NCBI RefSeq assembly: GCF_023617305.1
Contig: NZ_CP081485.1
Span: 1,478,501 to 1,542,500 of the forward strand
Source: Methanobrevibacter sp. TLL-48-HuF1
Lineage (GTDB): Archaea; Methanobacteriota; Methanobacteria; Methanobacteriales; Methanobacteriaceae
Direction of reading: 5' to 3'
Length of the DNA: 64,000 bases
Part shown: positions 41,248-45,705 of the stretch, in pieces
Position numbering within the stretch: the first letter of the stretch is position 1
Layout: every line of letters starts with the position of its first letter
Notes under the pieces: model-generated
The model's input: only the letters and a program-made list of their open reading frames with translations
Told to the model about the DNA's origin: nothing
Database searches by the model: none
Position numbers and translations under genes: made by a program

Positions 41248-42258
41248 TTAATATTCCTCTTCTTCATTTCTTTCTATTTTTTTAACAGAGTCTAAAACTT
41301 TATTTATTTTATCAATACCTTCTCCCTCAATAGCTGATATGAAAATAGAGTTATCTAATTCATCAACATACTGTTCCACATAGCTGGTGTCTTCAATAAG
41401 ATCCATTTTATTAAATAGGTAGATTACAGGAATGTTGTCAAATATTTTTTCAATCTGTTTTAATAAATTGTACTGACTTTCCAGACCAAATCCGCAGGTT
41501 TCAGATGCATCGAAAATAAATAAAATAGCATCCGCCAAATGTTCCAAAGCCACTATTGCATTTAATTCAATATCATTCATTTCTAAAACCGGTCTGTCTA
41601 AAAGTCCTGGAGTGTCAATAATTTGAATACTTTTCCAATGTCTTTCCACATGTCCTATTTGAATACCTTTAGTTGTAAAAGGATAGTTGGCTATTTGGGG
41701 GTCTGCTCCAGATATCTGGTTAAGAAGTGTGGATTTTCCAACATTTGGAAATCCTGCTATTACAATTGTTGTTGCATTGAAGTCAATTGTAGGCATATTT
41801 CTTAAGTTAGCTTTTGCAAAATCAAGGAAATCCAAATCCTTTTTGATTTTGTTTACAACAGATGCAATTCTACCATATGCTTGTTTTTGAAGGGTAGTTG
41901 CTTTTTCTGATGGATTTTTTCTGATTTTGCTCCCATATTCTTTTTCAAGTTGTGTTAAAATACCATAAGCCCAGTTAAGCCCTCCAAGAGCCTGTTTCAT
42001 ATCATCTACACCAACAGTAATGTCAATGTAATCCTGATAGAATGGGGGAAGGTCTTCTATATCTGGAACACTATCTAAAATGGATTTTAATTTGTCTTTG
42101 ATTACCTGACAAGAAGTTATAACTCTTCTTTCTTCAATTCTTTTTCCTTTCAGATGTTTAGGTATTTTCTGTGTTCTCATTAAATCTGCCTGTTTTTTCC
42201 CTCTGCTAAATCCTTTGTCAAGTAATTCATCAGGAGTAGGTATTGTAGGTATCATCAT
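41248..42258 (-). CDS. NOG1-like GTPase (Obg/HflX superfamily)
   Basis: About 336 residues. An N-terminal helical domain of ~150 residues precedes a G domain with [18 protein letters not shown] and NKMD. The archaeal family is related to eukaryotic Nog1, which acts in large-subunit ribosome assembly, and lacks its C-terminal extension. I prefer the ATG at 42258 ([20 protein letters not shown]): it follows the SD aaagtgat, while the open frame up to an ATG at 42303 adds 15 residues with no SD. The gene diverges from the helicase gene. Confidence 0.88.
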
Positions 42259-42506
42259 TGTTATCACTTTAAATATCAGTTGCTTATACTGCTTCTCTTT
42301 CAATAGTTATATAATATTCTTTAGCTAGGATGCTTAATTAAACTTGTGGCTAATGTTTAATTAAAAGTTGTTTCAATATTATTTATAAGATATTAGTTTA
42401 AACATACATAAAATAATTTGTTAATGCTGTTTACAACCGTTAATGTTTTTTGGACTTTTAAGAGAATCTTTTACATTTAATTTATTTTAATTAAGGGGGA
42501 TAATCA

Positions 42507-45083
42507 TTGAAAGAATATTATCAAATTGAAAATTTGCCAATTGAATTAAAAAATGAACTTAAAGATAATGCTTCTTTTTTTGATAATTTTGAGGGCAAAT
42601 CATTAGACGAACAACAAAGAATTGCCTGTATTTTGAATGATTGTGATTTGGAAATTATTGCAGGTGCAGGAACTGGTAAAACTCATACATTACTTGCTAA
42701 AGCAGAATATTTGATTGAAAAGAAAAATATTTCTCCTGATGATATTTTATTTTTATCATTTTCAAAATCTTGTGTAGAAGAATTAATTGAAAAATTAAAT
42801 TATGATGTTCCTACAAGTACAATTCATTCTTTTGGGCTGTCGTTAATCAATGAGTACAGGGATAAAGAAGTATATGATGGTAGAGGTTTTAAAAAGATTT
42901 TTGAGAAGTATTTAAAAACAGCATCAGATAAACAAATAGATGATATAACAACTTACTGTGAAAATAATCTTAACTCTCACGATATGATTAAATTAATAGA
43001 GTTGGATCGGGAAATTGAAAAATTTAATCATTTAATTTCAAAATCGAATATTTCTTCAAGAATTAAAAGTTTCATTGATTTATTTAAAGGTAAAGGATAT
43101 GTTGCTTCTGATTTTAAAAAGATTAAATCTAAATGTAAACATGACTTTGAAACTAATAATGGCGGATATTATACAAATAAAAATTATTTAAATAACATGG
43201 CTTTTATTCAGATAGTTAAATCAGTCTTTAGGTTTTATGAGGGTTACCTTTTTAGAAATCATTTAATTGACTTTAATGACATGATTAACAAAGCAATTGA
43301 ATTGATTGAAAAGGAAGGAATATTCAATAATTTTAAATATATTTTTGTTGATGAATATCAGGATATCTCTTATAAAAATTTTCAGTTTATAAAAACTCTC
43401 AAACAAGCTTGTAATGCTCATTTGGTTGTTGTTGGGGATGATTGGCAATCTATTTATGGTTTCAGAGATAGTGATATTACTCTGTTTAATGATTTTTGTG
43501 ATTATTTCCCAAATGCAAATAGGGTTTTCATTGAAAAAACTTACAGAAATCCTCAGGAATTAATTGACATTGCAGGTAATTTTATAATGAAAAATGAGTC
43601 ACAATTTAAAAAATCATTAAAATCAGATAAATCTATTGAAAAACCTGTAAAAATAATTTTTGATAGTGATTCAGATTCAATTTATAATCTCATTTATAAT
43701 TTATCAAAAGATAATGAAAAGGTATTCATTTTAGGCAGGTATAATGGGGATATTGATAAGTTTATATTTGATACTGACTTAGTTAAAAAATCAAAAGGTA
43801 GTTATAAACAAATAACAAATGATTATGAAAGTATAAAGAATGTGGAATATCGTACAATTCATAAAGCAAAAGGTCTTGAAGCAGATTATGTAGTTTTAAT
43901 CAATGTTTTTAATAGGGATTGGGGATTTCCTAATAAATTTTATCCACCATATTTCGTGAATTTAATACAGGATTGGGATTATGATAAAAAATTGGAAGAA
44001 GAACGTAGATTGTTTTATGTTGCTATTACTCGTGCTAAAAAAGGAGTTTATATATTTACAGAAGATTATAATCAGTCTGAATATATTGATGAATTAATAG
44101 ATGAAAATAATTTAGAATTAATTTATAGTGATGATTTTAACCGATTTAAGGAATTTGATAGTGTAGAGGAGGAAGATGTTAAAGCTAATTTAATTGATTT
44201 AAGCGATTTTGATAATTCTAAAGGTATTGAAATTAAAGCTAATCAGAAGGATTTTGGAAATAAGCTCCTTAAATCAAGAAAGTATGATGAAGCAGAAGAT
44301 TTTTATAAAAAATTAATAACTAATATGTATTTTTTAAATGATTATTATCCGTATAGAAAATTAGTTGAAGTATATTATAAGAAAAGAGATAATTTGAATG
44401 TTATAAACACAGTTGAAGAATTTTTTAAAAGTGGACGATTTTGTAATGAATCACAGGTATTGTGGTTTGAATCAAAATATAAAAAAGCATGTAAGTACTC
44501 TGGTCATAGTTTTTCTAATTTTGACGTATGTTTGGATTATTTTAATGAACATGGCCGTAAAAATAAAGACAAACAAAATGAACCTGTTCCAATTGCAGCA
44601 AGAATTCAAAGTGGTGGAAGAAAGGTAAAAATTATTTCTCAGGAGGCACATAATATAAAATCTGAATATCATGAGTTAAGCCTTAAATATAAATCTGCCA
44701 GATCTAGTAAAAAAGCATTATATTTTTTCGAGCAGTTATGGGATAGAAAAGAGTTTACAAAAAATTTAACTGCATATAAAAGATTATGTTCATTATATTA
44801 TGATACACAACAATATGAAAAAGTAATAGAAGTTGCAAAGGAATATTTTAATAGTGATGCCCGTAAAACTAAATCAAGTCCTGCTTGGTTTAATAAAAAA
44901 ATTGCAGAAGCTAGTAAAAAATTAGATAAATCTCCAGTAAACGAATCATCGGATTATATTAAAACAACTAACTTATCAAATGATGAATTATTATTTAAAT
45001 ATGCTGATTTATATGAAAAAGGATTATTAACTAAATATGAATTTGATAGAAAGAAAAAGGAATTATTATTTAATGATGATTGA
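42507..45083 (+). CDS. UvrD/Rep-type (SF1A) DNA helicase with TPR-like and SHOCT-like C-terminal regions
   Basis: An 858-residue protein. SF1 motifs are complete: Q-motif and Walker A GAGTGKT (52-58), motif II IFVDEYQD near 277, motif III VGDDWQSIYGF near 308, motif V TIHKAKGLEADYV near 449 and motif VI RRLFYVAITRAKK near 498. It is thus an ATP-driven 3'-5' DNA translocase. After residue ~560 comes a region of helical repeats resembling TPRs, including two similar blocks (YDEAEDFYKKL, YEKVIEVAKEYF). The last ~35 residues resemble a SHOCT domain (KYADLYEKGLLTKYEFDRKKKELL). No nuclease domain is seen. The start is TTG at 42507 after aaggggga. It stands alone, divergent from the GTPase gene. Confidence 0.88.
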   Translation: MKEYYQIENLPIELKNELKDNASFFDNFEGKSLDEQQRIACILNDCDLEIIAGAGTGKTHTLLAKAEYLIEKKNISPDDILFLSFSKSCVEELIEKLNYDVPTSTIHSFGLSLINEYRDKEVYDGRGFKKIFEKYLKTASDKQIDDITTYCENNLNSHDMIKLIELDREIEKFNHLISKSNISSRIKSFIDLFKGKGYVASDFKKIKSKCKHDFETNNGGYYTNKNYLNNMAFIQIVKSVFRFYEGYLFRNHLIDFNDMINKAIELIEKEGIFNNFKYIFVDEYQDISYKNFQFIKTLKQACNAHLVVVGDDWQSIYGFRDSDITLFNDFCDYFPNANRVFIEKTYRNPQELIDIAGNFIMKNESQFKKSLKSDKSIEKPVKIIFDSDSDSIYNLIYNLSKDNEKVFILGRYNGDIDKFIFDTDLVKKSKGSYKQITNDYESIKNVEYRTIHKAKGLEADYVVLINVFNRDWGFPNKFYPPYFVNLIQDWDYDKKLEEERRLFYVAITRAKKGVYIFTEDYNQSEYIDELIDENNLELIYSDDFNRFKEFDSVEEEDVKANLIDLSDFDNSKGIEIKANQKDFGNKLLKSRKYDEAEDFYKKLITNMYFLNDYYPYRKLVEVYYKKRDNLNVINTVEEFFKSGRFCNESQVLWFESKYKKACKYSGHSFSNFDVCLDYFNEHGRKNKDKQNEPVPIAARIQSGGRKVKIISQEAHNIKSEYHELSLKYKSARSSKKALYFFEQLWDRKEFTKNLTAYKRLCSLYYDTQQYEKVIEVAKEYFNSDARKTKSSPAWFNKKIAEASKKLDKSPVNESSDYIKTTNLSNDELLFKYADLYEKGLLTKYEFDRKKKELLFNDD

Positions 45084-45147
45084 TGGGATATTTTCAGAAA
45101 ATTTAGTGAAAATCCCATTTGTCACCACTATAAGTAATGTTACTTTA

Positions 45148-45705
45148 TTATTTAAATATTTGTCCCTGAAATGTGTATACATCACAGCTTTCATCTAAAT
45201 AGCTGTCTGCACTAATTCCTGCTTTCATACATGTATGTTCTAAAAAAGTTTCTACATCAAAGTTATTTTCAGTTGCTACTTGAGGAAGCAGCAATCCTTT
45301 TGAATATCCTTTTTTAATCATTAATCCGTCTTTGCCGATTTTGATATTGTTTAGATATTCACTTGGATGTGCAATTTCCATTAATTGGGGTTTTGTTAAA
45401 ACTGTAACCTCAAATTCCAGATTACCGTATTCTTCAGGAATTACCTGAGGAAATCTCGGGTCCTCAGATGCTGCTGCAATTGCTACACTGATTGTTGCCT
45501 GAATTGCACTTTCAATAGGTTCAGGATATCCGATACATCCTCTTAACTGATTATTTTTGTTTAAAGTTACAAAAACACCTAATTTTTCTTTAAGTTCTTC
45601 AGGACAGTCTTCAGGAACAAGAATTTGTTCGCCGGTTTCAAGATAAGTTTTTACCGCTTTTTTAGCTATATTTAACAAATATTCTCCATGTTCTTGGCTT
45701 ATCAT
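45148..45705 (-). CDS. AMMECR1 family protein
   Basis: A 185-residue single-domain protein with the conserved LRGCIGYPEP motif near residue 55. The AMMECR1 family is universal in archaea and eukaryotes, has no proven function, and often lies by MEMO or radical SAM genes. Here it follows tldD by 18 bases on the same strand. The SD agaggtg precedes the ATG. Confidence 0.9.
   Translation of the reverse strand: MISQEHGEYLLNIAKKAVKTYLETGEQILVPEDCPEELKEKLGVFVTLNKNNQLRGCIGYPEPIESAIQATISVAIAAASEDPRFPQVIPEEYGNLEFEVTVLTKPQLMEIAHPSEYLNNIKIGKDGLMIKKGYSKGLLLPQVATENNFDVETFLEHTCMKAGISADSYLDESCDVYTFQGQIFK

Follow-up and report, generated by a model that had tools for sequence, protein, structure and literature searches.

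UvrD/Rep helicases are listed among the SHOCT-bearing enzymes in a passage of the 2013 paper that defined SHOCT (PMC3581485), and an experiment outlined in the same source argued against SHOCT being an oligomerisation domain. Protection of E. coli from the phages T7 and lambda is conferred by a DprA-PRTase pair, which has been proposed to act as a sensor of phage DNA (PMC9122126). RqlH, a RecQ-like helicase-PRTase, is genotoxic unless the DprA-like RqlI is present (PMC4670107). The gene compared with these systems here is located in a stretch of 64,000 nucleotides, hereafter the window, from a Methanobrevibacter genome consisting of one contig of 1.95 Mb, presumably that of a gut methanogen, in agreement with the archaeal setting presumed in an initial annotation of this DNA.

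The helicase gene occupies 42507..45083 on the forward strand and comprises 858 codons from a TTG start, the position of which is shared by the orthologues. An AAGGGGG ribosome-binding-like stretch is found just 5' of the start codon, and a promoter scan remained at chance level (26 found, 24.4 expected). The helicase core, residues 15–534 (42549..44108, forward strand) as delimited by the NCBIfam model PRK11054, the motifs and Foldseek, is intact, as had been claimed initially. Pfam places UvrD-helicase at residues 34–333 (9.5e-41) and UvrD_C at residues 441–517 (6.7e-19), and every SF1A motif searched for is present (GAGTGKT at 53, DEYQD at 282, GDDWQSIYGFR at 310, YRN at 346, TIHKAKGLE at 450, and VAITRAK at 505), with Walker A, the DExxQD-type motif II and motifs III–VI that characterize the SF1A UvrD/Rep superfamily following one another in order. 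The best curated UvrD-family model in NCBIfam is DNA helicase IV (HelD, PRK11054; 7.7e-80 over residues 15–534, with a score of 269.2 bits that is below the equivalog cut-off of 543), whereas PcrA (1.5e-48) and UvrD/Rep (near 1e-37) are weaker, which makes the original label "UvrD-like" imprecise. The core aligns to positions 179–677 of PRK11054, and since positions 1–178 are absent, the N-terminal domain of helicase IV is missing; no Pfam match precedes residue 34. PcrA and UvrD come first in a sequence comparison with the PDB, and UvrD, PcrA and Rep come first (1e-17 to 1e-21) when Foldseek is run with the full-length model. Judged by its sequence, the protein is assigned to the HelD (helicase IV) branch of SF1A and not to UvrD proper, and from what is typical of the family, 3'–5' translocation on ssDNA and unwinding of duplexes can be expected. 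Pfam, NCBIfam and defence-model scans returned no nuclease family match in the protein, as the initial annotation had it, and a nuclease domain, as in helicase-nucleases of the RecB/AddA/AdnB type, is neither fused nor adjacent.

Beyond the core, HMM searches for TPR and SHOCT gave a picture that differs from an ordinary UvrD C-terminal region. Both the helical repeats and the SHOCT-like segment suspected at first are recovered; the extension exists, but the part with the repeats and SHOCT begins near residue 572 and not at 560. A first TPR-like helical array, residues ~572–690 (44220..44576; AF2 helices 572–689 and alignment), is followed by a conserved linker and beta-hairpin, residues 698–710 after PVPIAARI (44598..44636), and by a second TPR-like array, residues ~712–805 (44640..44921), the latter two defined by alignment and AF2. 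A SHOCT helical hairpin, residues 825–855 (44979..45071), comes after these, and all four features are on the forward strand. In the AF2 model, obtained with 20 relatives, the mean pLDDT of the tail is 86.5, and eleven helices are distributed across the two repeat arrays. Single-repeat Pfam TPR matches are sub-threshold in the window protein (TPR_1, E 0.0027 at 584–602); in the orthologue of genome G004, the scores are 2.4e-6 for TPR_7, 7.8e-6 for TPR_1, and 1.3e-5 for TPR_19. Designed PPR and natural TPR proteins (OGT, LGN, LapB, and Ctr9) are the best PDB matches in a Foldseek search with the tail (E 6e-4 to 1e-2), and because the TM-scores reach only about 0.3–0.4, the TPR fold class is supported but a close homologue is not. 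With high confidence, the C-terminal module of ~230 residues is thus predicted to be TPR-like.

For SHOCT (PF09851), the match at residues 831–854 straddles the Pfam cut-off of 27 bits, with 24.5 bits (E 2.2e-5) in hmmscan and 29.5 bits in the genome search. The AF2 helices 825–837 and 843–855 form a hairpin that agrees with SHOCT, and we tentatively assign the hairpin 825–855 to this domain at a Pfam score on either side of the cut-off. The link between SHOCT and oligomerising proteins that was drawn initially runs against the experiment in PMC3581485, as far as that source is concerned. Proteins of ~310 aa with SHOCT and a zinc ribbon adjoin ion-channel-like genes at L109:6353-7315, L110:3206-4162, and L112:3892-4812, and their SHOCT tail is nearly identical to that of the window helicase.

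Within the order searched, the TPR module is carried by the HelD clade, DinG-type helicases, VRR-NUC proteins, and stand-alone double-module proteins, all of them in Methanobacteriaceae. The stand-alone proteins of 520–560 aa (L115:4067-5632, L116:5054-6739, L198:2723-4339, and L199:2718-4334) consist of two TPR modules with no other recognisable domain, and are possible adaptors. What follows the module differs from orthologue to orthologue: nothing in G052, a second TPR module in G004, SHOCT in the window protein, and SHOCT plus ~100 residues in G065. The SHOCT tail of the window protein is ~85% identical in DNA over 91 bases to a zinc-ribbon protein of G062 that is unrelated in its other parts. 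With its common TPR part and differing tails, the C-terminal region has the appearance of a modular adaptor whose ends can be exchanged.

Full orthologues that include the TPR region are restricted to 3 of 66 congeners, G065 (78% identity to the window protein), G004 (73%), and G052 (58%), and thus to 4 of 67 genomes when that of the window is counted. When 68 HelD cores were placed in a maximum-likelihood tree, the four formed a fully supported clade, which a fifth, TPR-less protein of G006 joins, and the sister clade (support 87) includes PRTase fusions. The larger Methanobrevibacter HelD group is separate from Bacillota and Bacteroidota helicases, in a tree that was built by a quick method and has provisional deeper joins. 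Another protein of the genome under study, of 2151 aa (C1:1648435-1654890, equal to L108:8436-14891), carries a HelD core around residues 1235–1988 and zinc ribbons at either terminus.

Compared with its closest relative, G006, the window carries the helicase in a 2.8-kb insertion, 42363..45148 (the blastn match stops at 42362 and resumes at 45149), which is missing from G006 while the flanks are ~98% identical. On the left is a conserved GTPase gene (41248..42303, reverse strand), recognised by synteny in congeners, and on the right an AMMECR1-like gene (45148..45705, reverse strand) that adjoins the GTPase gene in many congeners, where the two are 3–4 bp apart or slightly overlapping. In G065 and G004 these genes are 3–4 bp apart, the junction is empty and the helicase is located elsewhere; each of the four copies has a different neighbourhood. 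The GC content of the helicase gene is 25.1%; 45 window ORFs average 32.2% (sd 3.1), and two other ORFs of the window are equally low. No convincing terminal repeats were found when the insertion was scanned for repeats. The insertion with its absence from G006, the empty junction in G065 and G004, and the low GC content indicate that the gene is accessory and its slot variable. Inserts of 0.6–4.2 kb, with genes that differ by species, occupy this junction (window 42303-45148; L153, L270, L271, L272, L274, L276, and L277), which is an insertion hotspot; in other species, transporter, adhesin-like or metabolic genes are found there, so that the slot is not defence-specific. An argument for horizontal transfer from protein identity was dropped, because the 73–78% found for G065 and G004 falls within the 65–86% of the flanking core genes, so that identity alone cannot show transfer; mobility is argued instead from the absence in G006, the changing position, and the composition.

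Bacterial members of the UvrD family remove proteins or recombination intermediates from DNA. Given this precedent, the intact core, and the solitary copy among housekeeping genes of the window, the protein could be an accessory DNA-repair or replication-restart helicase that clears such obstacles from host DNA, with the TPR/SHOCT part docking host replication or repair proteins. We consider this unlikely for a gene found in so few congeners (4/67 genomes), missing from G006 between nearly identical (~98%) flanks, and with orthologues next to phage terminase, defence RT, McrBC, and ShosTA-like genes.

Among these surroundings, a gene for a terminase large subunit (PHROGs, 4.9e-75) is found at a distance of 1.3 kb from the G065 orthologue, with a transposase-like gene between. 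In G006, the slot that corresponds to the one of the window helicase contains 1.1 kb of unrelated DNA with two terminase fragments, which are 85% DNA-identical to this terminase gene. In addition, PHROGs has a family of HelD-type phage helicases, phrog_1967, that matches the window protein at 2e-73. Each of these points is consistent with a gene of a mobile element, a provirus remnant or satellite, that would serve the replication, transfer or counter-defence of the element. Such an origin is nonetheless improbable, as no integrase or capsid gene was recognised next to any copy, the full protein finds among viral contigs at best 37–38% identity over part of the core, and no place in the phage records covers 80% of the query. 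With the C-terminal module as query, the viral contigs gave no match.

In G004, an RT_UG5-nitrilase gene (3.2e-191) ends about 20 nt before the start of the orthologue, and McrBC, PDC-S02, and RecB-like (UvrD-PDDEXK) genes are located upstream. A fixed partnership with the UG5 RT was rejected, since no HelD helicase adjoins this RT in three other genomes of the order that carry it, and the adjacency is thus not conserved. In G052, four genes on one strand nearly touch in the order PRTase, DprA, TPR/cold-shock protein, and HelD-TPR helicase, the first three with scores of 1.3e-15 (ShosT-like), 6.5e-69 (ShosA-like), and 3.2e-103 (PADLOC), respectively. Recognised defence genes therefore adjoin two of the four orthologues. 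Given the defence and mobile regions in which the orthologues are found, the suggestion of a phage-related helicase made at the outset is plausible, while its description as solitary, outside any visible multi-gene system, fits the window copy but not the 58%-identical orthologue of G052 with its PRTase-DprA-TPR/CSD-helicase operon.

The gene order of G052 recurs in G077, a member of another genus, where a DinG-type helicase that shares the TPR module is encoded last, and where the PRTase belongs to a protein of 709 aa (L193:12942-15068) that weakly matches a DinG reference. PRTase proteins by DprA with weak DinG-reference matches, 700–860 aa in length, are also noted in G066 (L220:8137-10242) and G099 (L221:5235-7808), and in G136 a RecQ-looking protein adjoins DprA (L229:8313-10406). 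The type of helicase at these DprA loci appears to be exchangeable. A fixed partnership with the TPR/CSD gene was rejected as a general rule: among 30 loci, helicase and DprA are near in G052 and G077 only, counted within the flanks read, and in G055 they are within about 11 kb. In G055, PRTase, DprA, and HelD helicase genes are consecutive. At L117:3768-8892 and L119:91-2899 (G041 and G046), HelD helicases carry a C-terminally fused ShosT-like PRTase and are directly followed by a ShosA-like DprA, and the gene content identifies these loci as putative RqlHI-like pairs with HelD replacing RecQ. When the genome of the window itself was searched, neither a DprA of the ShosA-like kind, nor a TPR/CSD protein, nor a UG5 RT was found.

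The operon of G052, and the PRTase fusions with adjacent DprA in the sister HelD clade, would fit a history in which the window protein is the orphan helicase of an RqlHI/ShosTA-like toxin-antitoxin operon (PRTase, DprA, TPR/CSD, and helicase) whose partners were lost on transfer, and which is now decaying or repurposed. We regard this as quite improbable. The three operon-less copies (window, G065, and G004) group together and have intact, full-length frames with gained or exchanged C-terminal tails, and hence look maintained. Moreover, since the operon is present in just one of four copies, a gain in G052 is as likely as a loss elsewhere.

Our preferred reading, to which we assign a probability of roughly 0.45, is that of a mobile, defence-associated 3'–5' ssDNA motor that recruits partners through the C-terminus. 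The relatives found among anti-virus genes favour an accessory motor for defence or DNA conflict over a core repair enzyme. The helicase would load on ssDNA from invading or damaged DNA, to which it would recruit a nuclease, an effector or a toxin switch of the DprA/PRTase type. As the architecture suggests, a partner protein would dock on the TPR scaffold, which is likewise present on DinG-type helicases and VRR-NUC proteins, and the exchangeable tail, here SHOCT, would decide the partner or site. Alternatively, the helicase itself may disrupt phage or plasmid replication. In the genome of the window, the helicase would act alone or with an unlinked partner. Counted against a defence motor are the presence of defence genes by just 2/4 orthologues, the unconserved UG5 adjacency, a slot open to other cargo, the lack of a candidate partner in its own genome, and of a viral-contig match to the C-terminal module.

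A broader reading, which we hold to be doubtful, is that the TPR cassette of Methanobacteriaceae is a common docking platform that plugs interchangeable enzymes acting on DNA (HelD, DinG-type helicases, and VRR-NUC nuclease) into DprA-PRTase (ShosTA/RqlHI-like) and other immune systems. The window protein would be a mobile and self-contained member, in which SHOCT has replaced the previous tail. If true, this would be an undescribed archaeal helicase defence module, in which a DNA-sensing motor is combined with a plug-in adaptor. Should the proposed role of the helicase hold, its family would connect, in archaea, motors of the HelD type with DprA-PRTase toxin switches and a portable TPR adaptor. 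The SHOCT domain, so far unexplained, would then be placed in a concrete context, as an exchangeable tail on a DNA motor whose partner can be sought. To our knowledge, little work has been done on the immune genes of methanogens from gut and rumen; these genes bear on whether viruses can be used against methane producers.

With respect to known systems, the window protein has the whole SF1A core in common with DNA helicase IV (E. coli HelD), but lacks the N-terminal domain and adds the TPR-like module and SHOCT. The HelD proteins of Bacillus and Mycobacterium that recycle RNA polymerase share the SF1 core fold (Foldseek, 3.6e-13), but the match is much weaker than for UvrD/PcrA, and NCBIfam HelR scores only 0.0026. 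A UvrD-like core is also shared with Gabija GajB, for which PADLOC has many models that match the protein (best 4.1e-43). The fit to the helicase IV model is better, however, the C-terminus is extra, and the neighbours are the GTPase and AMMECR1 genes and not GajA; we therefore rejected Gabija and ascribe the matches to general UvrD similarity. RqlH/RqlI and ShosTA are approached by the G052 orthologue, which likewise sits in a PRTase-DprA operon, and by the related HelD helicases, in which an RqlH-like PRTase fusion next to DprA is also found. PRTase and DprA are encoded together with the helicase for the G052 orthologue only, and not at the window locus, where the protein lacks a PRTase, the genome lacks such a DprA, and the helicase is of HelD and not RecQ type. 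No description of the HelD-TPR-SHOCT combination was found in the literature searched, in which subscription journals are mostly not covered. The initial view that no DNA-repair helicase of this layout had been described is nevertheless not supported, given the UvrD/Rep-SHOCT helicases of PMC3581485, in which, as is probable for the window protein, an SF1 helicase is joined to SHOCT. Compared by description, the passage in that paper names no TPR-like module, whereas the window protein has one. As the union of UvrD/Rep with SHOCT was thus on record in 2013, going by this passage, the layout is best regarded as a variant and not as a new kind.
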